Below, in pieces: positions 9,173-32,100 of a stretch of DNA of 64,000 bases. This stretch comes from Larimichthys crocea (lineage: Eukaryota > Chordata > Actinopteri > Sciaenidae). The position numbers and the translations under genes are program-made. The stretch covers positions 18,777,507 through 18,841,506 of the forward strand of contig NC_040028.1 in NCBI RefSeq assembly GCF_000972845.2. The letters run 5' to 3'. How positions within the stretch are numbered: the first letter of the stretch is position 1; the number at the start of each line of letters is the position of its first letter. The notes under the pieces are model-generated. The model ran no database searches. It was not told the DNA's origin and saw nothing but the letters and a program-made list of their open reading frames with translations.

Positions 9173-9217
<45 letters not shown>

Positions 9218-9384
9218 GTTAGTTTCTCTTGTTGTTTGTTTGTTTGTCTGTCTGTTTGTTTGTTTGTTTGTTTGTTGCAGCAGCCTCTTCTCTCCGGCGT
9301 TAGCATTGTAGCATTAGCCGCTAAGTTAGCAGTTACCTGGTCGATGTACTGTCGGACCCGCTTCCGGAGTCTGTCCAGGTTCAT
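2040..9384 (-). CDS. cdc16: cdc16 / APC6, anaphase-promoting complex TPR subunit (18 coding exons)
   Basis: CDC16 is a TPR scaffold subunit of the APC/C, the nuclear E3 ubiquitin ligase that drives anaphase and mitotic exit. Coding exons (minus strand, 5' to 3'): 9337-9384, 9114-9168, 8655-8752, 7762-7800, 7423-7563, 6663-6822, 6455-6549, 5840-5973, 5513-5592, 5366-5415, 5216-5289, 4968-5093, 4743-4895, 4121-4184, 3975-4036, 2772-2907, 2453-2543, 2040-2293. All introns are GT-AG, all phases close, and the sum is 1860 nt (619 aa plus TGA); human CDC16 is 620 aa. Diagnostic segments are the start MNLDRLRKRVRQYIDQ, KDPFHANCLPVHIGTLVEL in exon 9, YGPAWIAYGHSFAVESEHDQ in exon 12, CHLPMLYIGLEYGLTNNSKL in exon 13 and ASTYAAIGYVHSLMGDFESA in exon 16. 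The TPR array fills most of the protein. The last ~80 residues are diverged and end DTLSDTST. No frameshift or stop was found in any exon. Confidence 0.97.
6001..6040. repeat. (GT)n microsatellite in cdc16 intron
   Basis: An interrupted GT tract (GTGTGT...GAGTGTGCGTGTG) lies about 28 bp from the 5974 splice acceptor of cdc16 exon 8, on the intron side. Confidence 0.9.
7621..7724 (+). mobile_element. LINE relic (reverse-transcriptase ORF C-terminal end and tail) in cdc16 intron
   Basis: The plus strand reads NTFSQRLLAPRCSTERHKKS then FLWGLIKYF and a stop, followed by an AATAAAGTATTTCTGATT-type tail. This is the typical C-terminal end of fish Rex1/L2-like non-LTR retrotransposons (RLL.PRC.TERH.KSF). 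It is heavily 5' truncated. It lies antisense to cdc16 in the intron between the exons at 7423-7563 and 7762-7800. Confidence 0.6.
7823..7985. repeat. (AAT)n tract joined to an interspersed-repeat end
   Basis: AAT repeats at about 7827-7853 are followed by CATTTTATTTCATAGGCGCC and a CACCCAAGGACAC segment, a common teleost retroelement terminus. A related copy lies at 19700-19835, directly after the N gap (TTTTATTTGAAAGCGC...). Confidence 0.55.
7989..8263 (+). mobile_element. 5'-truncated LINE relic, ORF end plus 3' UTR
   Basis: The plus strand encodes IMDNEQHPLHHTVDRQRSSF, a fish LINE C-terminal motif, up to a stop at about 8074. This is followed by the familiar teleost LINE 3' UTR containing GGTCTAAGGACAGAGGGTGT, then GGGCTATACAAATAAAATG and short TGATT repeats. 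It sits antisense in a cdc16 intron. Confidence 0.65.
8390..8478 (+). mobile_element. LINE-type 3' tail ending in (TCTA)n
   Basis: A tail with GCTGCTGCACTGTAATTTCC, then GATAAATAAAG and a short (TCTA)n run, is characteristic of fish LINE 3' ends. Only the terminal part is recognisable. Confidence 0.5.
8608..8642. repeat. (AC)n microsatellite abutting the donor of cdc16 exon 3
   Basis: About 17 AC units start roughly 12 bases beyond the GTAAGT donor at 8654. On the transcribed strand this is a UG repeat inside the intron, next to exon 3 (8655-8752). Confidence 0.9.
8757..8906. repeat. Compound (AAAGATAC)n / (GATA)n microsatellite at the cdc16 exon 3 acceptor
   Basis: Repeated ACAAAGAT and GATA units run for about 150 bp and stop within 5 bases of the CAG acceptor of exon 3. 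On the minus strand the tract reads TATCTTTG / TATC, so it supplies the pyrimidine-rich region of the splice site. Confidence 0.9.
9019..9109. repeat. (CAGTTA)n minisatellite in cdc16 intron
   Basis: Hexamer CAGTTA repeats are arranged in two larger blocks that each end in CAGTAACGACACAA (about 9060-9075 and 9093-9107). The second block stops a few bases from the donor of cdc16 exon 2. Confidence 0.85.
9171..9214. repeat. (AC)n microsatellite at the cdc16 exon 2 acceptor
   Basis: About 20 AC units end in CCACAG, directly at the exon 2 boundary (exon starts at 9168). On the minus strand the acceptor context is (GT)n-CCACAG. Confidence 0.9.
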
Positions 9385-9560
9385 GTTGATGTTTGTCCTG
9401 TTGGCCGGTCAGAACTTTGTCATCCTCAGAGACAGAGGCGGGAAAACAATCAGTGTTTGACCTGAAACAGGACGAGCTGACCTGTTAGCCTGTTAGCCTG
9501 TTAGCCTGTTAGCTGCAAATCAAACCCGCGGCTTCTTCTGCAGCGGGGGCGCAGCGAACA
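9385..9560 (-). promoter_or_regulatory. cdc16: Putative cdc16 promoter / 5' UTR region
   Basis: This is the sequence immediately upstream of the cdc16 start codon. It is locally GC-richer (CCGCGG and GGGGGCGCAG around 9527-9552) and has no TATA box, as expected for a housekeeping cell-cycle gene. It contains four copies of the 8-mer CCTGTTAG at about 9481-9512. It is called from position and composition only. Confidence 0.35.
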
Positions 9561-10149
9561 TGTGCCGTGTGGAAACTACACACTGTGAACAGATGGTTCC
9601 ACATCGGTTCTCTACAAGAAATATATATTATATTATATTATACAGCTGTAAAAAGATAGATATTTTATTTTATTATAATAGAGTAGAGTTTAGTAGAATT
9701 AGATTAGATAATTAGATTGATTAGATATCTTCTATCTCCGACGCCACAGGGGAAGTGTACTTGTTACAGCAGCGATGAAAAGTGTAGCATACCTACAGAT
9801 TAGAAAAAAAGTAGAAAAGGCTAAAAAAAAAAAACAAAAACAAATAAACAGACAGAAATACTATACCCTACAATAACATGAAAACAATCAACAGTACGAG
9901 GATAAAGGTGGCATGATATATAATTAATTTATAATAATTATATAAAAAGGTATTGTAATGTAAAGTGACCCATAGTGTAAGTAAAATATTGCAAGAAATA
10001 AAATAATATAATGTTAAGACATATACATCTTTTAATAACAAGCCGTTATTATATATTTATTTATTTATTGTTTTTATCGTGTTTTTGTATTTTTGTTTTA
10101 TTTATTTTATTTACTTCGTTTCCTTCCATTCTTTGCTCATTGTGTTAGG

Positions 10150-10220
10150 TCTGCAGTTGTGTTATAGATAGATAGAGAGAGATAGATAGATATAGATAGA
10201 TAGATAGATAGATAGATCAG
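10150..10220. repeat. (GATA)n microsatellite, copy 1
   Basis: An interrupted GATA tract. The equivalent tract in copy 2 (20324-20363) is a cleaner (GATA)10 run. Confidence 0.85.
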
Positions 10221-10502
10221 AATCGCTAGAACGCTAGATCGATCAGCTAGTAGTAGATACAATAGGGCTATAATCGATACATACACGGGATTTTAATATA
10301 AATTACCTTCGAACTAACTCCTGCAGGTACGCCCACCTAATCTATTCTGTTTTTGGTCTTATCATATTACCTGAGTCAAAAAGTCCTCATTGCTCATTAA
10401 AACCTCCATACATACATCATACATACATACATATACATACATACATCATACGGCGTAATGTGAAGTAACAGAGACCTTTTTTTGCAGAAAAACACAAGCA
10501 TT

Positions 10503-12130
10503 TTATTCCTCTGCAGGACTTGCAGTGTCGTGCTTGATGTATTAGTTTCAGATTCATCAGAAGTGAGAAACGTTTCTCGGTGTTGGAAGTTTTATATCGG
10601 TGCAGGATTCTCATGCACCTGGTGAGATGGGTTTCTCAGGAAATCTGGTTCAGGGGCGGCGGATGTCGCTGCCTCCTGCTGTATCCTGTCCCGGTGCCTT
10701 CTTTCTCGCTGGGTCTTTGCTCTCTTCACTTGCCTCAGTATCTTCTTTGCCCTTGGCCTCGATGCTTGCAGGTTTGTGTGTGGTTGCATCAGTGCTGATC
10801 TTTTGGTCGTCAATGCATCTTTCTGTCTTTTCTGCACTTTTTTTTGTTGGTCACTGTCCTTTTCTGTCTGTTGCATCAGTGCTGATCTTTTTGGTCTGGT
10901 CAATGCACTTTTTCTGTCTTCTGTCTTTCTGCACTTTTTTCTGTTTTGCTGTCACTTTTCTGCTTTTCTTTTTTGACTGGTCTGTGGTCATGCACTTTTT
11001 CTGTCTTTCTGTCTTTTTCTGCATTTTTCTTTTGCACTGCACTTTTCTGTCTGTCTTGTCGACTTCTGTCACTGTCTTTTCTTGTCCTGGTATTGAAACA
11101 TAAAATAAATTCGCATAAGATCACATGATGCAGGGACGTCATGTTACTTTATCTAAAAAAGGAAGAAAAAAAAGTGTAACCTTTTGCTATGTGCTGTTCC
11201 TCGTGGGTAACGTGCAATGCTGTCCATCACCTTGAGAGTTTTAGCCAGTCCTGGCCAGCTCCTCACATTTAGTTGAGCCGCACTGCTCAGACGGCCCTGG
11301 ATCATTTGATTCTCCTTGGTATACGCAGCCAACTCAAGCTGTGCGCTCTCTGCCAAGGCTACAATGCGAAGTAAACACATGCTTTACAACCGGGGTTTTT
11401 AGTTCACGGTCACCCTTATTTCTTGGCTGTAACAACTTGTTGCCTCACTTAAATTCACTCCGATTCTGCCACAACTAACCTTTTCTTCTCATAACATTCC
11501 TGTTGTCGACTCCTCCAGTCGTCCTCTGAGATGTGTATTTTTTCCCTTAGCATGTCGTTTTCCTTTGAAGATCCCGTCGCCCATTCCTCTTCAAGCTTAT
11601 ACAATGACATGATTGGAAATAAGAGCACAGTATTTACACTACAACATTTCGATTTTCAAACTGAGGTTTTTAAAAAAAAACATCTCTTGTTACTGAGCTG
11701 TTCATTCTCCAAGACTTCACTCAACATCTGCGCCACCCAATGGACTGATGTGAGGTGAAAACATGAGAGAGATAAACAGCAAACCTTTAGTTTCTTAGCT
11801 TGAGAGTCAGGTGACGGTAGAGGTCTTCGGTGGAGTTGTGTTTATTGTTGGTTTGCTGACTTGACCCTAAGGAGAAAACATTAAATCAGTGCAAGCCAGA
11901 AAGGTGAAATGCGGTGGAAAAAAAAAAGGTTATTGTTGGTTGTTTTGACTACAACAGACCTTGAACGTTGTTCTTACCCAGGTGTACAAGTTGGCAGATT
12001 TCTAATCACTTCAAGATACGACCTCCACCCATTTCCCCGGTGTACCGCATATGAAGCTGGTGTCCCATTTCGTCGCAGATAGTTTTTTTCCAGTGGGATA
12101 GCGCAGGGTGTGAATATGCCAGGCTTGCAT
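10503..12130 (-). pseudogene. cfap97d2: Frameshifted duplicate of cfap97d2 (assembly artefact or pseudogene)
   Basis: All five exons of the intact gene at 20612-22308 have recognisable counterparts. These are the tail exon at about 10503-11085, the CFAP97 C-terminal exon at about 11180-11365, a coiled-coil exon at about 11480-11600, the exon with KPTINTT-type coding at about 11785-11870 and the first exon at about 12020-12130. Each carries single-base insertions or deletions. For example, two extra bases near 11819-11822 break exon 2, and exon 1 loses its frame after the ATG. The repetitive tail also has fewer 54-bp units. Given the adjacent gap, sequencing or assembly error is more likely than biological decay. 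Confidence 0.8.
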
Positions 12131-15100
12131 GTGCCCTGTCAAACAACACCCATTAAAAACCAACTAGAAGGCTTAATATTGCACACTCCCCTCTCGCGGA
12201 CTGCCTACCAAGTCCACAACATGCTTTTTACTGGATACTCTTTTGCATCTGGTCCTGCATGAATCCCCTCAAATCACTCAGCATTGCTGGCGATCCAGCC
12301 GCTCAGGGCCTCCTGACGCACCTCGACGGTGTGCTCTCGGGCTCCTACTCCTCCCATCCTTCGCTCCCCATCGTGTGCGTTTCATGCGCTGCGCCGTGCA
12401 GGTCGACTGGAGCGTCAGCGCCTGCAGGCTGTGGTTGTCTGCCGATCATACCGGGTTGCCATCAGCAGCGAGGGAGGAATGTAACCTGTGTTTCCACGAC
12501 GCGCATGAGCTTGTTTGCGATTCCACACACGGGCATACGGATAGGCATCCTTAGTGGGAGACTGTGAGAATGGGCTGTTATAAAATAGCTGCTTGGAAGA
12601 ACGCTGTTTCGAACTGTTCGTTAGTTGATTTAAAAAAAAAAAACAGCTCGTTGCTAGTATCAACGTCACAAATCAGGCCGAAGGGGACGATAAAAAAATC
12701 TAACACTGATCAACTTTCTGCTCGAGTGCAACAGATGTGTTGAGACACGCACGGTGAGTTAAATTAATCACAGTGAGATCCAGCGCATACAGGATTCACT
12801 CAATGAGGTCAGGGCATGCAGTCTCATGTAGTGTACTGCAACCGTTGGTAAGTGTTACTTGGGGAAACTTATAGCATCAGAGTCAACTGAATGTAACAGT
12901 AGTCAAACACTGTTTATGGCCAAAGACACCCACGACACGAAGAATTTAATATAACCAGACACGTGGTTGATGGATCATGAGAAAAACATTGTTTTGAACA
13001 TTGAAAAGTGTGTTTAAAGTTGAAATTAAATTAAATACATACACCAACGACAGCACTGTATACAAATGCATGTTTATTATGTATATCCGTTTAAATACCC
13101 TATACGTTTGGGAGGCACAACACCAATAAGCTATGGGTGAAACGATTTGTGATAGAATCCAACCGAGGGCCGACCAGTTACTTCATGAATGAACATCATC
13201 TCATTACAACCCACTCCCCACGACTGACCTAAAGTGGCCATGACGATTTTTTGCTGCAACTCGGTTACTAATTCAAAGCCCATGCCAGTAATGAACAAGC
13301 AAAGCACGCAGAAATCCTTAAGAGATCAAAGTGAAAATGGACATTTAAATGTCACCCTTTAAGCGCCTGATAAACTCGGAGGTACGGTTTTAGGACTTAA
13401 TATTAATATGTAACACCTAACTGGAGCTTAGTTGACAACCCAAGCTATCAATATGTTCTCAAAGATCGCACGTGTATAATTTTATAGTGTAATTGAGTAT
13501 ATTACAGAATAAATGCAGCTGTTTACTGTGGGGATTGTTGTAAAGCTGTCATGGCGAAGGGCGATTCTTCATTCTGACATCTCCCCAAGAGGCCTTCACA
13601 GCAATTAAGTCTTTCTCCCCCAGTGCAGTCACATCTCGGTGCATTGGAAGAGCCCTCATGAATAATTTGGAATAAGAGAAAAACGTTTCCAGACCAATTG
13701 TTACTTTGGTCGTATAAGAGAGAGGAATGTGTTGATGGGACAGATGCAGATACGGGGTGATAAAAACAGGGAATGGGAGTTGGTGCCTGTCAATCGCGCA
13801 AAGTCTGTCGTCAAAAAACATAACTTCCTTGTAAATGTATGCAGCTGAGTCACAAATTGCAAAATCATATGCACGCCTGCTTTTCGATTTAGTGCGTCCA
13901 TTAACGTTTGCAAATCGGAAGAATCATAAGGCTGCTCTGTAAACTCCTGCGTACAGAGTGCGATTTTTCTAGCAGTGCATGTGCAGCAGTTAGATTGGTT
14001 TGACACTTTCATCGTAAAAATGATATATCTCTAAGAGCTGCCCAAATAAATCACAAATATAAAACGGGCTACAAAAGTATTCACCCCCTTCCAAGTTTTA
14101 ATATAAGTGGAGGCAGCTGTGGCGTCAGATCTATGTTTGTAGGGGTCCTGCTTCTCGGTACCAAAAGCACATCTGACCTGCGTATTCAACTAATTCTGTG
14201 TGAAACTGTTGGGAGGCACTTTGTTTTGGATGTGCTTGTGCAAACAATTGTCAGTATGACTAAATATTCAACAAACTTCATCTCATAAGACCATTTTCAA
14301 GAGGTCCCAGGTGGAATCTGGCAAAACGTCAGCACAGATCTCATCCATTAGTAATACATAATTGAGTCTGTAGCAAGAGGAGGACAACACAGTCACAGCT
14401 GTGGGAAATACAGAGTAGCTAACTGGTGGTTCACGCTAGCCTGTATCTTTGTATCTGCAAAACTGATGCACCTGGAGAAAAAATGCACAGAACAATGAGA
14501 ACGTGCAACTCCCCACAGAAACAAGCATGGACCGGAGAGAGGAGAGGTCTCCTGGGGGCGTCACCGTTGCCTTGACTCACAAACACTTTCGAAGCGTAAG
14601 CTGCTCTCACAGATTTTACAGCTGTGGCCGAGTGTTTTCCTTTCATGACTGACCTTACTTGACTTTGAGGGCTTAGTCCACTGCGTCAGAATGTTCTATC
14701 CCACTGTCATTGTAAAACGGCCGGTAGTCATGCGATTTGGGGTTTATTTTCTGTTGCATATCTGTTAATAGATTTTGGGCTCATGTGAGAAATTAGTTTT
14801 GTTGTTGAGGATCAACTGTCGAGACTTCCAAATGACTTCCAATGTGATTGAAATGAGTGAAAGTTAATACGTCTTCTTTTTGTAACTGTGTTAAGTGATT
14901 GACCATCAATTAAGACGAGAGATAACTGTATTTAAGATAAGGGAAGCTTGTTTTCAACGTCCTCTTCAGGATGGCCGGGGGATGCTAGCATTTCAGGGGA
15001 AGTCTCACTTGTGGGTCTTCCATGCCACGTTGTGGGAATAAGTACTTAGAACGATGGTCTCTTTGGGACTAGGGAAGAAAGAGGACTGATACACAGCTCA

Positions 15101-18100
15101 GCATAACAGAAACGGCGAGTTGTGTGTGTGTTGGTGTGTGTGTAATGTTTTTCAGATGACACCGTTTTTAAATAATAAAGTTTGTCAAGCGGTGTAGTGT
15201 GGATTGCGGCCCCCTCTCCACTCACCCTCCCAACTACAGTTTTTGTCTGGAGCCAGTGTCTTATTTGTAGTGATTAATAACACTAATAAAACACAATTCT
15301 GCATATTGGATTCCATTTCGCCCAAAATTTTCAATAGAGGCCCCTAAAAGCTCCACCCATGGGACCTTTAAAGCCAAGATGCACAACACTCTCGCCCTCC
15401 CCTGTTTTGGCCACTGGTCTCCGCTGGAATGCGAGACAAATATCAGAGTTCCCTCAGAGCTCATATTTTCTACTCTATGGCTGTGTCCAGAGTCCCACAG
15501 ACATCAGCATGAGCAGCTTGTGCATTTCCCGAGGTCCCTGGATCGAGGATTTTTTTTTTTTTTTTTAAATCTGTGTGATGGAAAGTGACGACGGTACAGA
15601 CCATGAGGAGATCCTGTTTTAGAGGCGACCTACTTTGTTTAAATGACTACAATCAAAGAGTGTCTAGTGCGGTCATCATCTATACAGAATCTGGCTTATG
15701 CGGAGCAAGCCAACCTTCCTCATTATTTTTTTTATCCCACCAACCCCAACTCTAGCAGCTAGTTGAGCTCGAATAGTAACGCTGCATTCACATAAGCGTT
15801 TCAGATCAACCTCAAGAGTGGAACGCACTTGTGAATGAACACAGGAAGACTATTGAAGCAGCGATCCATCAGCGTCAACCTGAACGTTATTTCCTCACGC
15901 ATCAAAGAGATCATACTACAAAAAAGATCGTTGTTTCGACATGAAAGCTTGCTACCGCTGTTTTGACGCTTAATTTAAAAAATAGAAACAGACATTAGAG
16001 ACATTAGAGTTTGACCTTGTTTCTGCTTATTATCTGACGTATAGACAGAAACATCATTTCATATTTCATGTTTGACATTAATGCACAAGTGTGTTATCTC
16101 AGCCCCTCACAATGCTCAGTTCTTTGTGGAAGGAAAAAACCTAAAACAAATAGTAACAGTTTTCCTTGGATGAACCCGTATGACAACACCGTGAATCGAC
16201 ACAAAAATCTGAAAAGCTGTCTCACTTTACGTTTTAAACAAACTAGTTATTAAAAGATCAACACATATTGTCAGCATAATGGATGGTAGAATAGTCTCTG
16301 AAAGTACTCTGAAGAGCACAACTCCGCAGCCCTGCGCTCCATTATGGAGAGCAGGGATGCGTTGAACTGGACATAGGTTTTATACCCAATCTAAAATTAG
16401 CTCATTTTGATGACGTTAGGGCGACACAACATGCTGTGAAACTTCCTTCCTAAAAGCAGGAAGAGATACGCACCCATTTTAAATACGAAAAAAACCCATC
16501 ACAGCCTGTAATCCCGGATAGATCAGCGCGCTATGAAAGCGTATAAATAAATAAAGGTTCAGTCTTTACAATCAAACAAGACCCAACGTGCTGTTTTACA
16601 ATAACATAAGAGACAGAAATGAGGTTATGAGGAGAACAAATTAAGGCGAAGTAAAAGCCGAGTGCACAACATGCCCCGGAACTAATCAGACTGCCAGGAA
16701 GCTAAACAACAAATGCGATTTACTGATCGCATAATTAGCGCTTCTCCTTAAATGTAACCTCGCTATTTGCTCACAACGATAAAAAATGTTTATCTCCTGA
16801 TTTCCCTTCGCACAATATCACCTCTTACTGAAACATCTCAGAATTCTTAGGTTACGAGGCCACAGGATCCCATTGTACTTGGCGTACTTGGTTAAAAACC
16901 TGCTAAAAAACAAACAAATATTCAGCACAATCATTTGATACATGAAAGGATATGCGCATCCTTTTGATTGCTCAGTGGATGAGAACTCGATTATAACTAA
17001 AGAATACAAAATCGAGTTTAATCATTGTGAGTTGATGAAGTCCTACAGGACCATAGGTTCAAACTGGGTTGTTTATTACAAAATTACTTGGTCATGGAAG
17101 CATATGGTAATAAAAGAGATACAGAAGTGTAATCACAAAAATATTACTTAATACATAACACATGCCCTACAATTTAAATTACAAGAAGGCGCCATCATAA
17201 CCAAATCAGACATTTGAATGTGCAAAAAAATGAACTATAAAATTCACTTTTTCACGATCGGAAACTTGACAAACTACTTGAGGATGCAGGTCGTTCTGTT
17301 AGATTTGCTGTGTGCAAGAAATTTAAGGTTTGCGTGTTACTGGGAAAGTGGCTGAAATTGGTGATTCATAAGATGTTTTTCGTGGCAACGCTCGGGAAGC
17401 GTCTTGGGGAGTTGGCTGCTGTCCGCGGAAGAACGATGGAAATTTAAGAGAAAAACATTTGTGATTAGGCACTATTACTGTGCGTATAAAAGTTTGGTCG
17501 GGCATGGCCCTCACCTTCGACAGCATGATAACAAAATCTATTTATTATCCAACGACGGAGGCTATTGAAGGCAAACTGTACGACAGCAGTTCAAATCATA
17601 ACAAGAATAGAGTCTGCAAGGCGTTGTGGAACTGCCAAATCTCAAGTTACAAAGGATGTCAAAAGTGAACAAGTTTCCACTGAACCCTGTATGGTCAAGG
17701 AACAAGCGAACGCACCCTCCGCACACAGTAAAGTAGTTCATGAGGAGACATCCTCCTCGTGCAGGACACTCAAATAACCGGATAGTATCCAGAATTTTAT
17801 TTGTCCACCTACTTGTGTTTTTTTCTGGTAACAATCCTCACAGTGACTTCCTACTGGTCCTACAAGACGTACAGGATAAAGAATGAACAGAAGAGGACAG
17901 AAACGGTGTCAACTACATGGCAAGATCAGCAGCTAAAGAGGGAGTGAAAGAGCTGAAATATTGATTATCTTATTGGCAACTTACTGCAGGAACTAATCAA
18001 TCACATTACTGCAACATGTCGGTATGTTCGGGTAAACCTTCCGGCTTCATGAGCCTCGACTATGTGGACCGCAAGTATAGAGTAGAGTAGTGAATGCAAT

Positions 18101-18975
18101 CTCACTGCCGTTAAGAAACACTTTACCAAGAGAGTCCTTCAAGAACAAATACAAAATCAACGAAGTGCTCAACTAAACTGTAAAGAAAAGTAGACGAGAG
18201 GCTACAAATGTAAATGTGTTTTCACATAAGGAATGAATATAAGAGTTGATCAGACAATTCTCACCGACCGGATACTCACAGAGAGAATGAGTAGAAAAGG
18301 CGTGATTTGAGAGTGGGCTTTATTTTAGGCCTTGCGCATCATTAAGATATGATGTGTGTGTGTGGTGTGGTGTGTTGTGTGTGTGTGTGTGGTGTGTGGT
18401 GTGGGTGTGTGTGGTGTGTGGAACGACTCCTGGGGTAAAGTGTAAGATGAGGGATGGGCAGAAAAGGCCAGCGGAAAGGCAGCGACGGTGCCGAACGATC
18501 TTGGCATGAGTGAACCGCTGTAGATTCTTCCAATATCGCTCGGCTTGTTCACTGCGCCATTTGAACTGCGGGCCCTTCCTCATGCTTCGGGTGACGAAAC
18601 AGTGAAGGCACGTCTGGCCTCGCCCTGAAGAAAAGATGAGAACAACTCTCTCCAGCTGTCGCTCAACGCACGCCTTTGGTGACAAGGTTTCTCCATATAG
18701 ACTGAAGCGTGCCATGAAAACACAGATGGATCTTAAGGTTTTTGGGGGTTTTAACAAGGGAAAAACGAACTAATTCATGTTCGTTAAACACTTGAAATCA
18801 AGTGAGTACATCTCCACTGGTCCGGAAATTGCTGAAATTTGTTTTAATTAGTTAAACTCATATAAATAACACCCCCAATTAAATATGTATTAATATAATT
18901 ATTATTATCTGGGACAATAGCCGGTTAAGTTTTGTCAAGACCATACATTTCCTGTCTTTAAAAGTTGTTGCTTGT
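12131..18975. other. Non-coding part of copy 1
   Basis: No conserved coding exon was recognised. Open frames here are not preserved in copy 2 and vice versa, which argues against coding. One exception to note is a short frame at 17504-17668 whose central part matches 27398-27547. A truncated MITE relic lies at about 15188-15372. A GT-rich low-complexity tract lies at about 18353-18420. Confidence 0.5.
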
Positions 18976-19316
18976 TTAAAAGAGCAGTGTGTAGGATTTG
19001 GTGGCATCTAGGCGGTGTAGCTGCTGATTGCAACCTTATCATCAGCCCCTCACCCTCCTCCTTTCTAGAATGAAGAGAAACTACGGTGGCTGCAAAAGGT
19101 GTGAAAGATTGACAGGCCTGTGTAGATCCCGGTGTTAGGTTTTGTCTTTTCTGGGCTAACTGTAGATAAATGACAAACTCCGTGACATCTGTAGATATAA
19201 AAGACTCCTTCTAAGGTGATTAAACACTGATGGAAACGATAGCTATGAGTAATATATTTAGTTTGTGGCCGTATTCTGTAATAGAGCTTAAATCTTACAA
19301 CACTGCACCCTTTAAA
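18976..19316. mobile_element. MITE (TTAAAGGnnCAGTGTGTAG family), copy-1 counterpart
   Basis: It starts TTTAAAAGAGCAGTGTGTAG and ends with CACTGCACCCTTTAA, the inverted complement. It is the counterpart of the cleaner element at 28826-29154. The interior (GGTGGCTGCAAAAGGTGTGA, TCTGTAGATATAAAAGACTC) matches a family common in teleost genomes. Confidence 0.65.
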
Positions 19317-19669
19317 AGTTTTCTATACCGTCCTACCATTGTTAAATTGTACACCATGAAACTCACATCAAGACACATGAAAGGGGAAATTTAGACTGTA
19401 AGAAAAGACAGAGGTCCTCGATCATCATTATGTGGGCTGTGAACCAGTGCTGTAATATCCTGCATACGAGCACTCGATATTCACTGAATGTTGGCTGCCT
19501 TGCCATACAAGAGCAGGTGTCTGAATCCTCAGCAGGGGCAGTGGTCACTGCGCTTAATCTCTCGTAATAATGAATAGCATTGGTACAATGGATTTTAAAG
19601 AGAGTTGGTTATTATGTGTGGGTGGGATTCTCAATTTGTGCCGATTGGTCGTTTGCCCTAGTAGTCCAA

Positions 19670-19699
19670 NNNNNNNNNNNNNNNNNNNNNNNNNNNNNN
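19670..19699. other. Assembly gap (30 N)
   Basis: Thirty ambiguous bases separate the end of copy 1 from the contig carrying copy 2. The length is likely a placeholder. Confidence 0.99.
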
Positions 19700-19835
19700 A
19701 TAATAATAAATAATAATAATACATTTTATTTGAAAGCGCTTTTCAGGGTACTCAAAGACACTTTACAGAGAAGAACATTAAATCATCAAAACAATATAAG
19801 ACAGTGCACTAAAAACACATTAGACATTAAACATT
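19700..19835. mobile_element. Retroelement 3'-end fragment at the start of the second contig
   Basis: (AAT)n is followed by ACATTTTATTTGAAAGCGCT and AAAGACACTTTACAGAGAAG, a common teleost interspersed-repeat terminus related to 7823-7985. It has no counterpart to the left of copy 1. The second contig therefore begins in repetitive DNA, a typical reason for assembly failure. Confidence 0.5.
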
Positions 19836-20322
19836 AAAAGCAATTTTAAAAAGGTGTATTATATTATATTATATTTATATTATATTTTATTAGATTAGAT
19901 TTACTTTAGTCATCCCACCACAGGGGAATGTACTTGTTACAGCAGCAGAGGAAAGTGTAGCATACACTACAGAATTAGAAAAAAGTAGAAAAGGCAAAAA
20001 AAATAAATAATAAACAGACAGAAATATCTATAACCTACAATAAGCACAAAAAACAATCAACCTTCAAACAGACAAGTACTGAGGATAAAAGTGGCATGAT
20101 ATATAAAAAGAGTATTGTAATGTAAAGTGACCATAGTGTAAGAAAATATTGCAAAGAAATACAATAATAATAATGTTAAGACATGTAAAAACATCTTTTA
20201 ATAACAGGCCATTATTTATGTATTTATCTGTTTTATCGTGTTTTTGTATTTGTTTATTTATTTTATGTATTACTTTGTTCCTTTCCATTCTTTCTCATTG
20301 TGTTATGTCTCAGTCTTTGTTT

Positions 20323-20323
<1 letters not shown>

Positions 20324-20363
<40 letters not shown>
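20324..20363. repeat. (GATA)10 microsatellite with LINE-like tail
   Basis: Ten GATA units are followed by CTTTAATAATCCCCAAAGGG, the typical junction of fish LINE 3' tails ending in GATA/TATC repeats. Confidence 0.85.
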
Positions 20364-20365
<2 letters not shown>

Positions 20366-20610
20366 CTTTAATAATCCCCAAAGGGATATTTGAATACAAT
20401 AAAAATACAATAGAATCAAATACTGAGGTAGAAAAAAACAAATAATATATTCTGTTTTTGAGTATTACATATTATACTGAAGTCAAAAAGTCCTATTGCT
20501 CTATTTAAACTCCTCCATACATACATACATACATACATATATACATACATACATAGGGCTTAATGTGGAAGTAACAGAGACTCTTTATTTTGCAGAAAAA
20601 CACAAAGCAT

Positions 20611-20616
20611 TTTATT
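20611..20616 (-). terminator. cfap97d2: Poly(A) signal overlapping the cfap97d2 stop codon
   Basis: On the minus strand the end of the gene reads GAA GAA TAA AATGC, so an AATAAA hexamer overlaps the TAA. A second AATAAA (TTTATT on plus, 20584-20589) follows about 25 bases downstream and may be the one used. Confidence 0.45.
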
Positions 20617-22308
20617 CCTCTGCAGGACTTGCAGTGTCGTCCTTGATTGTATTAGTTTCAGATTCATCAGCAGAGGTGAGAAACGTTTCATCAGTGTTGG
20701 AGGTTTTATCGGCTGCAGGATTCTCATTTGCACCTGGTGAGATGGGTTTCTCAGGTACATCTGGTTCAGGGGCGGTGGATGTCGCTGCCTCCTGCTGTAT
20801 CTCTGTCCCTGTGCCTTCTTTCTCGCTGGGCTCTTTGCTCTCTTCACTTGCCTCAGTATCTTCTTTGCCCTTGGCCTCGATGCTTGCAGGTTTGTGTGTG
20901 GTTGCATCAGTGCTGATCTTTTGGTCTTGGTCAATGCACTCTTTTCTGTCTTTTTCTGCACTTTTTTCTGTTTGGTCACTGTCTTTTTCTTGTCTGGTTG
21001 CATCAGTGCTGATCTTTTGGTCTTGGTCAATACACTCTTTTCTGTCTTTTCTGTCTTTTTCTGCACTTTTTTCTGTTTGGCCAATGCACTTTTTTCTGTC
21101 TTTTCTGTCTTTTTCTGCACTTTTTTCTGTTTTGCCAATGCACTTTTTTCTGTCTTTTCTGTCTTTTTCGGCACTTTTTTCTGTTTGGCCAATGCACTTT
21201 TTTCTGTCTTTTCTGTCTTTTTCTGCACTTTTTTCTGTTTGGTCACTGTCTTTTTCTTGTCCCTGGTATTGAAACATAAAATAAAATTCTCATAAAGATC
21301 ACATGATGCAGCAGTCATGTTACTTTATCTAAAAAAGGAAGAAAAAAAAAGTGTAACCTTTTGCTGATTTGCTGTTCCTCGTGGGTAACGTGCAATGCTG
21401 TCCATCACCTTGAGAGTTTTGAGCCAGTCCTCGTGCCAGCTCCTCACATTATAGTTAGGCCTGCACTGGCTCAGACGGCCCTGGATCATTTGATTCTCCT
21501 TGGTAATACGCAGCAACTCCAGCTGTCGCTTCTCCTTGCCAAGGCTACAATGCGAAGTAAACACATGCTTTACAACCAGGGTTTTTAGTTTCACGGGCCA
21601 CCTTGGCTGTACAACTTGTTGCCTCACTTAAATTCACTCACGATTCTGCCACAACTAACCTTTTCTTCTCATAATCATTCCTGTTGTCAACTCCTCCAGT
21701 CGTCCTCATGATATGTGATATTTTCCCCTTAAGCATGTCGTTTTCCCTTTGAATCTTCGTCGCCCATTCCTCTTCAAGCTTTATACAATGACATGATTGG
21801 AAAAAAGAGCACAGTATTTACCCTACAATATTTCTATTTCAAACTGAGGTTTAAAAAAAAACATTCTTCTTGTTACTGAGCTGTTAATTTCTCCAAGACT
21901 TCACTCAAACATCTGCTGCCACCCAATGGACGTGATGTGAGGTGAAAACATGAGAGATAAAACAGCAAACCTTTAGTTTCTTCAGCTTGAGAGTCAGGTG
22001 ACGGTAGGTCTTCGGTGGAGTCGTGTTTATTGTTGGTTTGGCTGACTTGACCTAAGGAGAAAACATTAAATCAGTGCAAGGCCATGAAAGGTGATGCTTG
22101 GAAAAAAAAAGGTTACTTTGGTTGGTTTGTGACTACAACATAAGCTTGAAGTGTGTCTTCCCAGGTGTACAGTGATGGCAGATTATTAAGTCACTTCACA
22201 AAGCCTCCAAACCTTTCCCCGGTGTAACGCATATGAAGCTGTGTCCCATTTCTGCTGCAGATATTTATTTCCAGTGGGAAGCAGGGGTTGATATGCCAGA
22301 TGTGTCAT
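20612..22308 (-). CDS. cfap97d2: CFAP97-domain protein, cfap97d2-like (5 exons, long repeat tail)
   Basis: CFAP97/KIAA1430 (Hemingway) family proteins are linked to cilia, flagella and sperm development. Exons (minus strand): 22213-22308, 21971-22051, 21660-21778, 21358-21544, 20612-21262. Phases close, giving 1134 nt (377 aa). Exon 1 reads MTHLAYQPLLPTGNKYLQQK. Exon 2 contains AKPTINTTPPKTYRHLTLKL. Exon 3 is a coiled coil ending GGVDNRNDYEKK. Exon 4 contains ELLRITKENQMIQGRLSQ and a YNVRSWHEDW segment. This order and these motifs are those of CFAP97D1/D2. Residues 1-161 form the family domain. Residues 162-377 are an extra charged tail with five TEKSAEKDRK units, then an acidic Pro/Thr/Ser-rich end (...DDTASPAEE). 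Known D1/D2 proteins are about the length of the domain alone. D2 rather than D1 is inferred from the cdc16 neighbour. Splice donors are GTTTGG, GTTTGC, GTTAGT and GTTACA, all weak after position 2. Confidence 0.8.
20900..21255 (-). repeat. cfap97d2: 54-bp coding minisatellite in the cfap97d2 last exon
   Basis: Head-to-tail units encode TEKSAEKDRKDRKKCIGQ (18 aa, 54 bp). Three are near-identical, followed by two diverged units in which KCIG becomes ECIDQDQKISTDAT. Because the unit length is a multiple of three and the sequence lacks stops, a second minus-strand frame (Lys-rich, KKTEKTEK) and a plus-strand frame are also open across it. The reading frame given here is fixed by the phase of exon 4. 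Confidence 0.85.
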
Positions 22309-25300
22309 GGCCCTGTCAAGACAAAACATTAAAAACAAAGATGTAATATTGCAAACCTCTCTACTCCTACCATGAAGAAACATGCATTTTATGAATATTT
22401 TTGCATTCTGGTCCAGAATGAATCACCTAAAAGTCAACAGCATTGCTGGCTAATCCAGCCCCTCAGGCCTCCCTGACTCACCTCGCAGCGTGTGGCTGCC
22501 TCGGCGTCTTCCTATCACAACTCTTCATCTGCCCATACGAGTGTGTGTTCATGCTCTGAAGCGTGCAGGTCGACTGGAGCTCAGAGACTGCAGTCTGTTG
22601 TCTGCCAGTCATACGCGGTTGCCATGACAGCAGCTGGAGGGATGAATGAATGGTTTCAAACGATGTGCTTGTTTAGCAAGTTCCACACACGGGCATAGAG
22701 ATAGGCTAATTAGTGAGGAGACTGTGGAGAGAGGGGCTGTAAAATGAGCTGCCGTGTGAAGACGCTGTTTCAGAACTGTTTTTTGTTGTTTTAAAGAAAA
22801 ACATGCTCGTGCTAATTCCAACCATTCATACCTGCAAGGACATATAATAAATAATCTGAACACTGATCAGACTTTCTGCTCGAGTCAACAGATGTGTTGA
22901 ACACGCTAACGGTGAATTAATTCAATCAAATGTAGAATTCAGCATACAGGATTCAATCAATGAGGTCAAGGGCATGCATGCTCAAGTATACTGCAACCTT
23001 GGTAACAGTTACTTGGAAACTTGCATCCGAGCAACTGAATGTAACAGAGTCAAACACTGTTTATGCAGAAGACACCCACAGACACGGAAAATTTTAATAA
23101 AGCAGACACTAGGTTGATGCATGATCATGAAAAAACATTGTTTTGACATTAAAAAAAAGTGTGTTTAAAGTTGAATTAAATTAAATACACACACCATACA
23201 GCACTGTATACAATGCTGTCTTATTATGTTATCATTTAACGTACCCTATACGTTTGGGAAGGCACAACACAATAGAGCATATGGTGAAAGATTTGTTGAA
23301 TGAATCCCACCGAGGGCGACGTGACTTCATGAATGAACATCTCTATTACAACACTCCCCCCTACTGACTACAGCTGGCCATGACGATTTTTTGCTGCAAC
23401 TGTTAATAATTCAAATCCCATGCCAGTATGAACAAGCAAAGCACGCATGCATCTTTAATAGATCAAAGTGCAATGGATCATTATGTCACTCCTTTTAATG
23501 CGCCATGATAAACTCGGAGGTACTTTTTTAGGACTTAATATTAATATGTAACACCTACCTGAGCATTACGTGCACACCCAGCTATCAATATGTTCTCAAA
23601 TGATCGCACGTGTATAATTTTATAGTGTATATTGAGTATATTACAGAATAATGCAGCTGTGTACTGTGGGGATTGTTGTAAAGCTGTCATGGCGAAGGGC
23701 GATTCTTCATGTCTGACATCTCCCCACAGATGCCTTCACAAGCCAATTAATTCTTTCTCCCCCTAGTGCAGTCACATCTCGGTGCATTGGAAGAGCCCTC
23801 ATGAATGAATTATGGGCAATAAAACGTTTCCAGACCAATTTGTTACTTTGTCGTATAAGAGAGAGGATGTGTTGATGGGACAGATGGCAGATACCGGGGT
23901 GATAAAAACAGGGACTGGGGAGTTAGGTGCCTTTCAATCTTTCTCATTCTGTCTTTCAAAAAACAGAACTTCCTTTGTAATGTATGCAGCTGAGTCACAA
24001 ATTGGGACATTGCAAAAATCATATGCACCCTGCTTTCGATTTAGTGCTTCCATTACGTTGCATAATCGGAAGAATCATAAGGCTGCTCTGTAAACTCTGA
24101 GTGCTATTTTTCTACAGTGCATGTGCAGCAGTTAGGATTTGTTTGACACTTTCATCTTAAAAATGAATATGAATCTCTAAGAGCTGACCCAAATAAATCA
24201 CAAATATAAAACTGGCTACAAAAGTATTCACCCCCTTCCAAGTTAATATAAAGTGGAGGCAGCTGTGGCAGCAGTCTATGTTTGTAGGTCTGCGTCTCGG
24301 TGGCACATCTGGACGCTGCGTATTCCACTAATTCTTTGTGAAATTGTTGGAGTGGCACTTTGTTTTGATGTGCTTGTGCCAAACAATTTCAGTGTGACTA
24401 AATAGTTCAACTTCAGTCTCATAAGACCATTTTCAGAGTGTCCCATGTGGAATCTGGCAAACGTCAGCACAGATCTCATCCATTAGTCATACATACTTGA
24501 GTCTGTAGGCAAGAGGCAGGACAGACACATTCACAGCTGTGGGAAATACAGAGTCTCTACTGTAGTTCACCTAGCCTGTATGCTTTGTAGTCTGCAAGAA
24601 CTGATGCACCTGGAGGAAAAAAACGCACAAAGAAATGGAGAACGTGCAAACTCCACACAGAACAAGCATGGACCGGAGAGAGGTCTCCTGGTGGCGTCAC
24701 TCGTGGCTTTGACTCACAAACACTTTCGAGCGTAAGCTGCTCTCAACAGATTTACAGCTGTGCCAGAGTGTTTTCCCTTTCATGACTGACCTTACTTGAC
24801 TTTGAGGGCTATTCACTGCTTCAGAAATGTTCTATCCCACATGTCATTTTAAAAACGGCCCGGTAGTCATGCAATCGGTTCTATTCTGTTGCATATCTGT
24901 AATCGATTTTGGCTCATGTGTAGAAATTTGTTTTTGTTGTTGATGATCACTGTCAAGACTCCAAATGACTTCCATGTGATTGAATGAGTTGAAAAGTTAA
25001 ATACTTTCTTTTTGTAAGCCGTGTTAAGTATTGCCATCAATTAAGACGAGAGATAACGATGTATTTAAGATAATGAAGCTTGTTTTCACGTCCTCTTCAG
25101 AATGGCAGGGGATGCTACCAGTTTCCAGGGAAGTCTCACTGGTGGGTCTTCCATGGCCCCGTTGTGGGAATAAGTACTTAGAACGATGGTCTCTTTGGGA
25201 CGAGGGAAGAACAGGAAGGACCTGATACACATCTCAGCATAACAGAAACGGCGAGTGCATGTGTGTGTGTAATGTTTTTCAGATGACACCGTTTTTAATA

Positions 25301-28300
25301 ATAAAGGTTTTTCAAGCGGTGTAGCTGTGGATTGCGGCCCCCCTCTCCACTCACCCTCCCAAACTACAGTTTGTCTAGAGCCAGTTCTTATTTGTAGGTG
25401 ATTACACACTAATAAAAACACAATTCTGCATATTGGATTCCATTTCTGCCAAACTCTTTCAACAGAGGCCCCTAAAATCTCACCCATTGGACCTTTAAAG
25501 CCAAGATGCACAAACACTGCCTCCCCTGTTGGCCACTGCGTCTCCGCTGATCGAGACAAATATCAAGAGTTCCCTCAGAGCTCATATTTTCTACTCTATG
25601 GCTGTGTCCAGAGTCACAGTGACATCAGCATGAGCAGCTTGTGCATTTCCCCGAGGTCTGGATCGAGGATTTTTTTTTTTTTTTTAAACCTGTGTGATGG
25701 AAAGTGACTACGGTAACAGGACCCATGAGGAGATCCTGTTTAGAGGCGACCTACTTGTTAGAATGACTACAATCAAAGAGTTATCTAGTGCGGTCCGTCT
25801 ATGCAGAATATGGCTTTGCTGGAGCAGCCAAACCTTCCTCTTCTCTGCGGCTAGTTGGCTCGAATGTAACGCTGTATTCATGCTTTTCAGATCAACCTCA
25901 AGAGTGATGCACTGTGAATGAACCAGGAAGCTCTTGCCAGCGGATCTCTCGCGTACCCTGAAACGTTCTTTTCTCCACGCCCAGCGATCATCTATCAGAT
26001 CGGTGTTGATGAAGCATTGCTAACGCTGTTTTGACCTTTTTAAAAATAGAAACAGACATTAGAGACATTAGAGTTGACCTTGTTCTGCTATTATCTGGTA
26101 TGACAGAGAACATATTTCATATTTCATGTTTGACTTTATGCACAAGTTGTTATCAGCCCTTCACTTGCTCCTTTCTTTGTGGAAAAAAACCCTAAAACAA
26201 ATATGTACAGTTTCCTTGGTTAACAGTGACAACACCTTGAGTCTAACCAAATCTGAAAAGCTGTCTCACTTGGTTTATAAAAACTAGTTTTAAAGTCAAC
26301 ACAATTTTCAGCTAATGGATGGTAGAATAGGTCTCTGAGCGACTCTGAGGCACTATACTTTCAGCCCTGCTGCTCCATTAATGGAGGCATGGATGCTTTG
26401 ACTTGGAAATAGGTTTTATCCCTCTAAAAGTAGCTCTTTTGATGACAGTTTGGCGCACACATGCTGCACTTCCTTCCTAAATGCAGGAAGTCAGCCCCAT
26501 TTTAATACTCAAACCCATACAGGCCTGTATCCCGGATAGATCTGCGCTATGAAAGCGTATAAATAATGAAAGGTGCAGTCTTTACAAGTCAGAAAAGACC
26601 CACAGTGCTGTTACATAAGAGCAGAATGAGTTATGAGGATAACAAATTAGGCGAAGTGAGGCCGAGTACAGCAACATGCCGGACTAATCGACTGCAGGAA
26701 GCTGACACAAATGCAGATTTCTGCTCTCATTCGTCTTCTCTTAAATGTAACCTCAGCTTTGCTCACAACTATAAATGTTCTCCTGTTTCCCTTGGCAACT
26801 TCACCTCTTCTGAACATCTCAGCTTCTTGGTTACTGGCAAGGTCCCTTGTCCTTGCGTCTTGGTTAAAAACCTGCTAAAAAACAAAACATTAATTTCTCT
26901 CATTAATTTGTATCTGAACGAATGATGCTCGTTGTTTTATTGCTCAGTGGTGAGAACTCGATTTTCTAAATGATACAAATCGATTTAATCTTGTTGTGAA
27001 TGTCTAAAGTCATAGGTTCAAATGGGTTTTTTACAAATGACTTGGTCATGGAAGCTTGGTATAGAGAGCAGAGTGTATCACATATACTTTACATGACAAC
27101 ATGCCTACATAGTAGGCCACATCATCATCAGACTTTGAATGTGCGAAAATGAACTTCTTTTTCAAGTCTGAAACTTGAAACTAACTTGAGGTGAGGTCGT
27201 CTGTTATTTTGCTGGTGCATAAATCTTACGGTTTGCGTGTTACTGGTGAAAGTGCTGAATTGTGTTCAGGTGTTTTCGGGAAGCTCGGGAATCGTCTTGG
27301 GAGTTGGCTGCTGTCGCGGAAAGAACGATGGAAATTTAAGAGAAAAACATTTGTGATTATGCAACTATTACTGTGCGTAATAAAAGTTTGTCGGGCCATG
27401 GCCTCACCTTCAGACAGCATGATAACAAAATCTATTTATTATCCAACTACGGATGCTATTGAAGGCAAACTGTACGACAGCAGTTCAAATCATAACAGAA
27501 GAATAAGTCTGCAAAGGCGTTGTGTGAACTGCCAAATCTCAAGTTAACAAAGGATGTCAAAGTGAACAAGTTTCCACTGAACCTGTCTGGTCAAGGAACA
27601 AGCGAACGCACCCTCCAGCACACAGTAAAGTAGTTCATGAGGAGACATCCTCCTCGTGCCGGACACTCAAAATAACCTGATAGTATCACATTTATTGTCC
27701 ACCTACTTGTGTTTTTTTTCTGGTACAAATCCTCACAGTGACTTCTACTGTCCCTACAAGACGTACAGGATAAAGACAGTGAACAGAGCAGCACAGAACG
27801 GTTCACTACATGGCAGATCAGCGGCTAAAGAGGGAGTGAAATAGCTGAAATATTGATTATCTTATTGGCACTGCAGGAACTAATCAATCACATGACTGCA
27901 CATGTCTGTATGTTCGGGTAAACTCCGGCTTCATGAGCTCCACTATGTGACCGCAGTATAGAGTAGAGTAGTGCGATGCATCTCACTGCCGTTAAAGAAA
28001 CACATTACAAAGAGAGTCACTTCAAGAACAAATACAAAATCAACGAAGGCTCAAACTGTAAAAGAAAAGTAGAAGAGAGGCTAAAAATGGAAAGTGTTTT
28101 CACAATAAGGAAGTGAATATAAATATGTTGATCATGACAATTCTCACCGGACAGGATACTCCCAGAGAGATGATTATAAAAGGGCGTGATTTGAGAGTGG
28201 GCTTTATTTTAGGCCTTGCGCATCATTAAGATATGAATGTGTGTGTGTGTGTGTGTGTGTGTGTGATCGCTCCTGGGTAAAGTTTAGATGAGGGAGTGGG

Positions 28301-28825
28301 CAGAAAGGCCAGCGGAAGGGCAGCGACGGTGCCGAACGATGCTTGGCATGAGTGACCGCTGTAGCATTCATTACTAATATCCGCTCCGCTTGTTCACTGC
28401 TCCATTTGACTGCGGGCCCTTCCTCATGCTTCGGGTGACTAAACAGTGAAGGCACTTCTTGCCTCGCCCTGAAGAAAAGCTGAGAACACCTCTCTCCATC
28501 TGTCTCTCAACTGCACGCCTTTGTGACAGGTGTCTCCAAATATAGACTGTAAGCGTGCCATGAAAACACGGATGATCTTAGAGGTTTTGGGGGGTTTTAA
28601 CAGAGGGAAAAACTGACTAATTCATTCGTTAAACACTTGAAATCAAGTTGATTACATCTCCAACTGGTCCTGAAATTGCTGAAAATTTAGTTTAATTATT
28701 AAACTTCTATAATAACACCACCCAATTAAAGATGTATTAATATAATTATTGTTATCTGGGGACAGTAGCTGATTAAGTTTTCGTCAAAGACCATACATTT
28801 CCTGTCTTTAAAAGTTGTTGCTTGT
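22309..28825. other. Non-coding part of copy 2
   Basis: No recognised gene. Truncated MITE relic at about 25314-25500 (GTGTAGCTGTGGATTGCGGC to GGACCTTTAAAG). A (GT)n tract lies at about 28238-28264. A short plus-strand frame at 27398-27547 is listed separately. An AATAAAG on the minus strand near 28203-28209 follows a weak acceptor-like site, but the open frame there differs between the two copies. Confidence 0.45.
27398..27547 (+). CDS. Possible small ORF, 49 aa (unrecognised)
   Basis: The frame starts with a good initiation context (GGCCATGGCC) and reads MASPSDSMITKSIYYPTTDA, ending CQISS. The counterpart at 17504-17668 keeps the central 27 or so residues (DSMITKSIYYPTT-AIEGKLYDSSSNHN) and then diverges through indels. 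It may be a first exon or a chance frame. No domain or homologue is recognised. If the two copies are one locus read twice, their agreement is not evidence of selection. Confidence 0.15.
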   Translation: MASPSDSMITKSIYYPTTDAIEGKLYDSSSNHNRRISLQRRCVNCQISS

Positions 28826-29154
28826 TTAAAGGAGCAGTGTGTAGGATTTGGTGGCATTTAGCAGCGTAGCTGCTGATTGCAACCTTATCGCCTCACCCTC
28901 TCCTTTCTAGAATGAAGGAGAAACTACGGTGGCTGCAAAATGTGTGAAAGATGTGACAGGCCCCGTGTAGATCCAGTGTTAGGTTTGTCTTTTCTGGGCA
29001 ACTGTAGATACATGACAGACTCCGTGACATCTGTAGATATAAAAGACTCCTTCTAAGGTGATTAAACACTGATGGAAACATAGCTATGAGTAATATATTT
29101 AGTTTTTGCCGTATTCTGTAAATAGAGCTTAAATCTTACACACTGCACCTTTAA
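28826..29154. mobile_element. MITE with ~24-bp terminal inverted repeats, TTAA-flanked
   Basis: The left end is TTAAAGGAGCAGTGTGTAGG. The right end, reverse complemented, is TTAAAGGTGCAGTGTGTAAG. The element is about 330 bp with no coding capacity. TTAA at both ends would suit a piggyBac-type TTAA target, although it may be part of the inverted repeat. Confidence 0.75.
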
Positions 29155-32100
29155 AAGTTTCTATACCGTCCTACCTTGTTAAATTGTACACCATGAAACT
29201 CACATGCAAGACACATGAAAGGGGAAATTAGACTGTATAAAGACATAGGCCTCGGATCACCATTATGTGGCTGTGACACAGTGCTGTATATCCTGCATAA
29301 CGAGCACTCTATATTCACTGAATGTGGGCTGCCTTGCCATACAATAGCAGGTGTCTGAATCCTCACAGGGCCAGTGTCACTGCCCTTATCTCTCCGTAAT
29401 AATGAATACCATTGGTCACAATGGATTTTAAAGAGGAGTTGGTTATTATGTGTGTGGGATTCCTCAATTTGTGCTATTGGTCTTTTGCCCTATTAGTCAC
29501 AATGTGGGTGCGCTGGAGAGGTTTGAGAGCCCGTTGTCTAAACATCACATACGGCGTTGCTTTTTTAGCCAAGTATCGCCGAGCGGTAACTGACAGTGAA
29601 TCAAAGCTGGAGTCTAATGTGTGTTAAACATATAACTGTCCAGGAGGCCCACGTTCTGCAGTATGAAGTACATCTATTCAGATATTTGTTAATATTAGTG
29701 TTAACCAGAAAGTTGCCTAATATAGTGGAATCAGTGCTTCCATGTGAAGCACAGCAACCACGTCTGGCAACTTTGTTAGTGTCAACTTTGTCCCTGGACA
29801 CCAGCAGCTGTGTTGTGTGCACAACTTTGAAGGAGAGCGTTCAGCGAGTGGGAATGAACAGAAGCTCGCTACAATTTGTTAACAACAGAAGAACTATGTG
29901 TGTGTGTGTGTGTGTTTGAATGAAGTCTTTAGTCATGACTTGGTTTCACAGCAGCTGTTCGTTTGCTCGCGAACACTTGCTCTAAGCGGTGCCAAAACAA
30001 AGCTCACTCTCCCTCTGTGATTGGTAGACATCTTGGCTAAGGGCACGCCGGGTGAAGGGGAGCGGATGGTTTCGACTACTGCGACTGAACATGGATATAC
30101 AGTACATGCACTTCCAATCTTCAAATCCCTGAAAGCATTGGCTGTGACTCGGGCCAATGCACAAGTTTCTAAATTAAAGTACAACAAGCTGACAATAAAA
30201 CTTTAATGCTTTTTACAATAATGACAGAACGGCCTCACTTTGAGCACATTAAACTGTTGAGGTTTCATTATGTTACACAACTATTATTTACGCAGCAGTG
30301 CACTGACTTATTTGATGTCCATGCACAGTTTGTCATACTCCCTTGTTAACAACACTGCTTCAAATCAATAGAAGGAATAGCTTCATTGTCTTGTCATAGT
30401 ATTGTGCAACAAACTATTTCAAATTGCACCCAGTGTGCTTTTTTTTAAACTAATAAAATCACAATCCTGTTATTATTATTCAAGATTACATGATGCACAC
30501 TAGTGTACTGTGGAAACTGTAGTATTTTTCAGGCTTATTTATTTATGCTCCCTTCAATCATTCATTTAATTTGGAGGAAACACAGTGTGATTAGAATATC
30601 CGCTCCTTTAAGAAGAGCACGTGGGGGTACTGTCAGCATTTCCACTTTAAATTAATAATGATCAAACACCTTAAGAAATTTTCAGCATGCTTGCCACCTT
30701 TCAGCTTATTAAATGTATTCGAATATCTTCAGTCTCATCCAAAAACAGCACATATTCATAATTATGTGGCTCATTCATATTAGATTGTGTGCACTAGTTC
30801 AAGCAGCTCTTTACAAATTTGCTATATGTGCGTGCAGATTTTTACTAAGAAGTCCAAAAATAGTTAAAGTACCCTGTGTTATTATTAAATACTTTTTAAT
30901 CATTGTTATATTTTTCGCATTAGATTCAGATATGCATGCCTCCACATACACCGATCGCCAAACGATAACACTCGTGCAATTCATGCGATCTTCACACTCC
31001 CCCGTGTGTGAGCCTTTTAAATGTGTACAGTAAAAACCTGAGAGAGCACGAGTAAAACTGAAACCAGTCCATTTATCTCTGTGCATCTTAAATCAAGTTA
31101 TTTTTCCACACCAGGGAAAAAAAAAAACAGGCTGTTAAGAACTCACAAGGGAGCCACTTCCTGCCGGCCGCAGCCCGGGCAATCAAAACGAAGTATTCTA
31201 ATGATCCCTGACAAAATCGTCAGACGATATCCTCCAGGGTGCAATGATACTTTACATTACAGTAGACGGATCGATAGGGAGGATGACATGAGAGGCCTCT
31301 GCAGAGGGAGAAAGCTGGAGAGCCTGCGGTGCACTGCTCTGACTTGTGATGATTCCACAATGAGTCCGTTTGACCTCGCAGGACACGTGCGGGTCTGCGG
31401 CACATGTGTGTTAAAATAACTGAATTCACCTCGTGTCTGAGGCAGTGTGCTAGAGATACAGTAGGCCTGTGTGTGTGTGTGTGTACCTGCATGTACAGTA
31501 AATGAGTTAGCAGGTACACAACATGTGCAGTAATTGAACAATTGACAGCTACCCAAATCGATAAGAAAATCTGTACCCTGCGGCCTTTAAACAGTGACAC
31601 AGCAAAAAATATAATGCAGTGCTAACAAAGTCAATCAGGAAACAAATTGTTTCAAAGTGGCCCACATCCCTGTGGAACCAGTTATCACAGACAACTGACA
31701 AGACCTGGGCACCACAAAACTAGGTCATTAAAGTGGATTAATGCTGTAATTCAGAGATGAACACACAACACAACCCCACTAATGAACCCCTCCAGTCTCT
31801 CATCAAGCTTCCCGTGCTGTCGTTAATACTGTTTACACAAACCTCGCCTCTGGCTCGCTCGGCGTTGTGTCGGACAGCGACTGGAACTCTTTCAGGCCGA
31901 GTTTAACCGTCCAGAAGGCACAACTTCTGATTGGTTGTCCATACAAGGACGTCATTTTCATAGTGATTTTCCCTGTCTATGAAAATTTAGCAACTAATAC
32001 TGATCGATTAATTCAACAGGATCTTATTTACACACGCTTGAAACTGAAGTGTAGTATGAATTTATCGTTTTTAGTAGTTGTAACATAATCTGTAAAAAGC

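Follow-up and report, generated by a model that had tools for sequence, protein, structure and literature searches.

The region analysed is a window of 64,000 nucleotides of Larimichthys crocea DNA (C18:18777507-18841506; unprefixed positions below count from its first base) in an assembly of 657.85 Mb comprising 9907 sequences. It carries the genes cdc16, cfap97d2 and fgf14 and a single run of N within the window, and it had been described as containing a duplication around that run with cdc16 and fgf14 as the flanking genes. Both flanking genes are present. The start codon of cdc16 lies at 9382-9384 on the minus strand and the minus-strand open reading frame 9094-9408 contains MNLDRLRKRVRQYIDQ. 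Eleven pieces of ten cdc16 open reading frames match the CDC16 chain of PDB 5g04_J (580 bits) up to this start codon. The match leaves out chain residues 90-118, 421-458 and 505-620; over the rest of the chain the cdc16 frame shows no break. On the other side the plus-strand segment 34437..34646 is presumably the first exon of an fgf14 isoform, having been found by tblastn with an isoform-1b N-terminus as the query (71% identity, E 1.2e-29). The features between the two genes are as follows.

9384..9650, end approximate, no strand assigned: stretch of the left contig upstream of cdc16 and preceding the repeated part, with AT-rich simple sequence at its end
9671..19669, plus: left copy, apparent raw-read-quality duplicate of about 10.0 kb running up to the gap (BLAST, global alignment, noise profile, reading frames and simulation)
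10503..12130, minus: left-copy cfap97d2, with frame-changing indels in all five coding exons (comparison with the right-copy exons)
19670..19699, no strand: assembly gap of 30 N (count of N runs in the window)
19700..19860, plus: dispersed high-copy repeat at the start of the right contig, 157-161 bases (search of the assembly)
19857..29502, plus: right copy, the clean version of the duplicated stretch (BLAST, global alignment and intact frame)
20612..22308, minus: intact right-copy cfap97d2 of 377 aa in five coding exons (open frame, GT donors and AG acceptors at the four introns)
22213-22308, 21971-22051, 21660-21778, 21358-21544 and 20612-21262, minus: coding exons of the right-copy cfap97d2, with exon ends picked by us

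BLAST aligns 9671-19669 with 19857-29502 on the same strand and in a single piece, head to tail around the 30-N gap, over 10385 columns at 84.4% identity with gaps counted (495 mismatches and 761 gap openings). The left copy terminates at the final base before the gap and the right copy continues past 29502 into new sequence, which confirms the head-to-tail, same-orientation alignment ending at the gap that had been proposed. Its proposed start at 9640 is possible; however, in a comparison of 60-base tiles with the right contig a clear match is seen only from 9700-9759 onward (0 of 100 shuffles as good). The four tiles from 9500 to 9619 were no better than shuffles when compared with 19700-20100, and those between 9619 and 9700 are ambiguous, with tile 9600-9659 beating 100 of 100 shuffles. 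As ATATT-like simple sequence is found at both places the left boundary cannot be fixed exactly. Given that the covered parts of cdc16, up to 9384, show no frame break and that noisy homology is clear from about 9700, the noise begins between these two points and ends at the gap.

The protein predicted from the right-copy cfap97d2 matches the Pfam family PF13879 Hmw_CFAP97 with an E value of 4.5e-21. Compared with this intact frame the left copy carries 85 frame-changing indels over 1134 coding bases, distributed as 14, 4, 8, 14 and 45 across exons 1 to 5, and the earlier observation that open reading frames are broken in the left copy therefore holds. The alignment of exon 5, which contains a tandem repeat, is the least sure, and exons 1-4 by themselves hold 40 frame-changing indels in 483 bases. 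Coding exons have 77 indel events per kb (87 in 1134 bases), compared with 89 per kb overall (860 in 9657 bases). The tandem repeat in the final coding exon of the right copy, at 20891-21255, has a unit of 54 bases or 18 codons and is KKCIGQTEKSAEKDRKDR-like; its counterpart in the left copy is eroded by indels.

In order to characterise the differences between the copies we used a global alignment started from 9660/19846, which gave 8825 matches and 369 mismatches together with 379 gap events in which the left copy lacks 463 bases and 481 in which it has 816 extra bases. Indel events thus outnumber substitutions by 860 to 369, a ratio of 2.33, and with 780 of the 860 indels being of 1-2 bases the preliminary description was right that the differences are mostly scattered short indels. 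Transitions and transversions stand at 96:273, a ratio of 0.35. Expressed per 9657 right-copy bases, the left copy has 3.8% mismatched, 4.8% missing and 8.4% extra bases; English et al. 2012 (PMC3504050) set 2% for mismatches, 4% for deletions and 9% for insertions when simulating PacBio RS reads. Among isolated mismatches there is an asymmetry between strands, with T>G at 54 and A>C at 15 (p 5e-6), and the asymmetry is retained with stricter flanks (34 vs 8 and 13 vs 3). No asymmetry was found in the remaining five of the six complementary mismatch pairs tested (p 0.1-1). Such a pattern could fit one strand of one molecule. The noise is uneven along the left copy, ranging from 8 to 36 events per 200 columns and lying partly in low-complexity stretches, and 9650 of its 9969 31-mers are without a match in the right copy. 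The observed to expected CpG ratio is 0.67 in the left copy and 0.48 in the right, which we do not take as proof of noise because values for individual kilobases in other parts of the window go up to 0.89. The indel excess, the transition to transversion ratio, the strand asymmetry and the broken frames are those of copies that differ by sequencing errors and not as alleles do, and they support the earlier reading of the left copy as having the pattern of unpolished long reads. Judged by its letters, it looks like raw single-strand long-read sequence.

This profile was compared with six simulated runs of raw reads and six of evolutionary divergence, the rates and the transition to transversion ratios being chosen by us. 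The ratio of indel to substitution events was 2.65-3.86 in the simulated raw reads and 0.16-0.36 under simulated divergence, compared with the observed 2.33. Observed identity is 0.843, as against 0.866-0.879 for the raw-read simulations and 0.829-0.834 for those of 13% divergence. Deletion events (379) exceed the 262-363 of the raw-read simulations, and the 481 insertions, with a mean of 1.7 bases, are fewer and longer than the 557-666 of about 1.2 bases that were simulated. A left-copy G stands for a right-copy T 98 times, compared with 25-33 in the raw-read simulations, an excess that the model does not contain. The simulations thus match the left-copy profile in kind and not in every number.

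At the junction the right contig opens with the dispersed repeat. When the assembly was searched with 19700-19860 the best 40 of 459 candidates were all 94-100% identical, one being the query itself and the 39 others 94-99%, and for 28 of these 39 scored places the match stops at query base 161, only a few bases from the point (19857) at which BLAST homology between the copies starts. A more diverged copy of the repeat, present at 7836-7974, is probably located within an intron of cdc16. High-copy repeats are places where contigs tend to break, and the one at the start of the right contig may explain why the contig breaks there. No counterpart of the first 157-161 bases of the right contig was found at the left flank, 9200-9700. 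As a candidate noisy match to that flank these bases scored 25.5 against a shuffle mean of 29.0, with 147 of 200 shuffles as good, and the candidate was rejected. The overlap is therefore not a clean or simple dovetail. We favour a right contig that stopped in the repeat, with the left side read from an allele without it, over a repeat that marks a real junction.

Repeat pairs of at least 600 bp were sought by BLAST on both strands in 314 kb of C18, a contiguous stretch made up of the window and a further 250 kb. Three N runs occur in this stretch, of 30, 10 and 5000 N. Only two such repeat pairs were found and each abuts one of the short gaps, the 30-N and the 10-N gap respectively. The second pair, C18:18887204-18890699 and C18:18890710-18894324, lies 94 kb away and is likewise head to tail, with copies of 3.5 kb and 3.6 kb around the 10 N at 90.4% identity and 121 gap openings. 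It forms a dovetail exact to one base, the left copy extending to the last base before the gap and the right copy from the first base after it. Here 139 indel events stand against 59 substitutions and transitions to transversions are 29:30. Because of this ratio and the lower noise the second pair is not identical in kind to that of cfap97d2, and it may include allelic differences. At the 5000-N gap (C18:18933210), which belongs to a different gap class, no flanking duplicate was found in what was compared.

The rest of the assembly was searched for further copies, in searches that pass over simple repeats and give scores just to the top candidates. For 15000-16000 there were eight matches, two of them full-length and corresponding to the two copies and six of 71-101 bases, and no third copy or haplotig was found. 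The left flank 9100-9660 gave eleven matches, one of them full-length and ten covering 33-45 query bases, nearly all of these short ones in the simple-sequence parts of the query, and no second place for the flank was found. A query of residues 1-161 of the cfap97d2 protein has seven matches in the assembly. Four are in the right copy at 81-100%, two of which run past the exon end into a stop, and one is in the left copy at 70% and covers exon 4 only. Two weaker matches, of 37% and 55%, are located at C12:2961718-2964436 and perhaps represent the paralogue cfap97d1.

These observations bear on three alternatives to a single stretch written twice. The first is a real, near-identical tandem duplication of 10 kb carrying cfap97d2, in which accurate reads were collapsed into the right copy, copy one is represented by one raw read and the young repeat at 19700-19860 marks the point where the copies meet. 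Upstream, the flanks of the two do differ, as they would at a true tandem junction, and from sequence alone two identical copies viewed once through a raw read are indistinguishable from one. The differences are not dominated by substitutions and the copies as assembled are not near-identical, but both facts are compatible with identical copies of which one is seen as a raw read. Against this, the duplication would have to coincide with a gap, while the other pair of at least 600 bp in the 314 kb also abuts a short gap and has dovetail ends; and besides the two copies the assembly search yielded only the weaker relative on C12 and no second intact cfap97d2. We consider a real tandem duplication very unlikely.

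Extremely unlikely, in our estimation, is a heterotype false duplication in which the copies are the two parental haplotypes. The repeat at one copy only, from a family as young as its 94-99% identity indicates, is what a polymorphic insertion would give, and two alleles may indeed differ at the repeat site. The 860 indel events, the low transition to transversion ratio and frame breaks in five of five exons, for a gene whose other copy is intact, are not expected of haplotypes, and a heterotype component would at most add to the explanation given below. An ancient tandem duplication, with the left copy now decayed to a pseudogene, merits next to no credence in spite of the broken frames and of an identity nearer to that of the 13% divergence simulations than to that of the raw-read ones. 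It is contradicted by the difference profile: indels exceed substitutions 2.3 to 1 with ts:tv of 0.35 (in vertebrate divergence substitutions normally far outnumber indels and transitions are in excess), strand asymmetry affects one type of mismatch, and coding exons carry indels at nearly the overall density. At the rates that we chose it is also rejected by the simulations, which were built with vertebrate-like rates and gave indel to substitution ratios far from that observed.

The explanation that we prefer, on the evidence of the sequence, is that one genomic copy has almost certainly been written twice, with the left copy consisting of uncorrected-looking long-read sequence, and that the duplication is an artefact of assembly, of a kind already described. 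A clean contig with cdc16 on it would have ended in the AT-rich repeat cluster between cdc16 and cfap97d2, and a clean contig carrying cfap97d2 and fgf14 would have begun at the same spot inside the high-copy dispersed repeat. An essentially raw stretch of long-read sequence about 10 kb in length, presumably a single read and probably from one strand of PacBio continuous long reads, would then have been attached to the left contig end. This extension would have crossed the real junction and covered the opening 9.65 kb of the right contig a second time. Noise, together with the unmatched repeat of 157-161 bases, which the allele represented on the left presumably lacks, may have hidden the overlap from the software, so that both versions were kept with a 30-N gap between them. 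The preliminary description had proposed two unmerged contig ends. An unmerged overlap is supported by the noise, the frames, the placement at the gap and the second pair; a clean dovetail is not. The raw-read quality of the left copy likewise stands, and taken with the unbroken parts of cdc16 examined, the extension of a clean contig end by a raw read fits at least as well as two independent contig ends. We infer gap extension, or overfilling, rather than two independently built contigs. The unmatched 157-161 bases, the departures from the raw-read simulations, the uneven noise and the less noisy second pair do not fit simply.

Because the repeat would be one stretch written twice by assembly software, the second cfap97d2 gene is very probably not real. 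The artefact would add this false gene and about 10 kb between cdc16 and fgf14, and the earlier statement that their distance is overstated by about that amount agrees with our measurement: from the start codon to the fgf14 exon the assembled distance is 25.05 kb, and it would be about 15 kb if the copies were collapsed. Two of the three N runs in 314 kb carry such a pair, a sample of three gaps on one chromosome being too few for a rate, and gene-family or duplication counts drawn from this assembly would therefore need every short gap to be checked. The case matters chiefly as a correction and as a caution regarding the short gaps of the assembly.

Several known kinds of assembly error resemble this locus. 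Homotype false duplications are described at contig boundaries, where copies of about a read length lie in tandem on either side of a gap (Rhie et al. 2021, PMC8081667), and their mark is very low depth, that of heterotype duplications being half depth (Ko et al. 2022, PMC9516828). By analogy, depth here would be expected to be very low on the left copy and normal on the right and not half on each. In agreement with the homotype kind (PMC8081667, PMC9516828) the two tandem copies lie in one scaffold with an assembly gap between, the differences are those of sequencing errors and a gene is very probably gained falsely, and the left copy, at 10.0 kb, may be about as long as a single long read; unlike it, one copy here opens with a high-copy repeat missing at the other flank. 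The heterotype kind (PMC8081667, PMC9516828) also places two copies within a single haploid assembly and commonly has a gap separating them, but the noise profile here is one of errors and not of alleles. Overfilled gaps, as produced for example by PBJelly (PMC3504050, PMC9635638), would be similar in that an unjoined long-read extension into a gap enlarges the scaffold, and differ in that the gap lengths of 30 and 10 N here were not traced to any program. In a cichlid paper (PMC4580222) a 20-bp gap was overfilled with 779 bases, for which its authors blame structural variation. In the Trematomus borchgrevinki study (PMC9635638) 28,377 gaps were overfilled by PBJelly and duplicated BUSCO genes rose from 95 to 105, a gain of duplicated genes like the one seen here; the reads used for filling there had been error-corrected, which the sequence of the left copy here does not look to have been.
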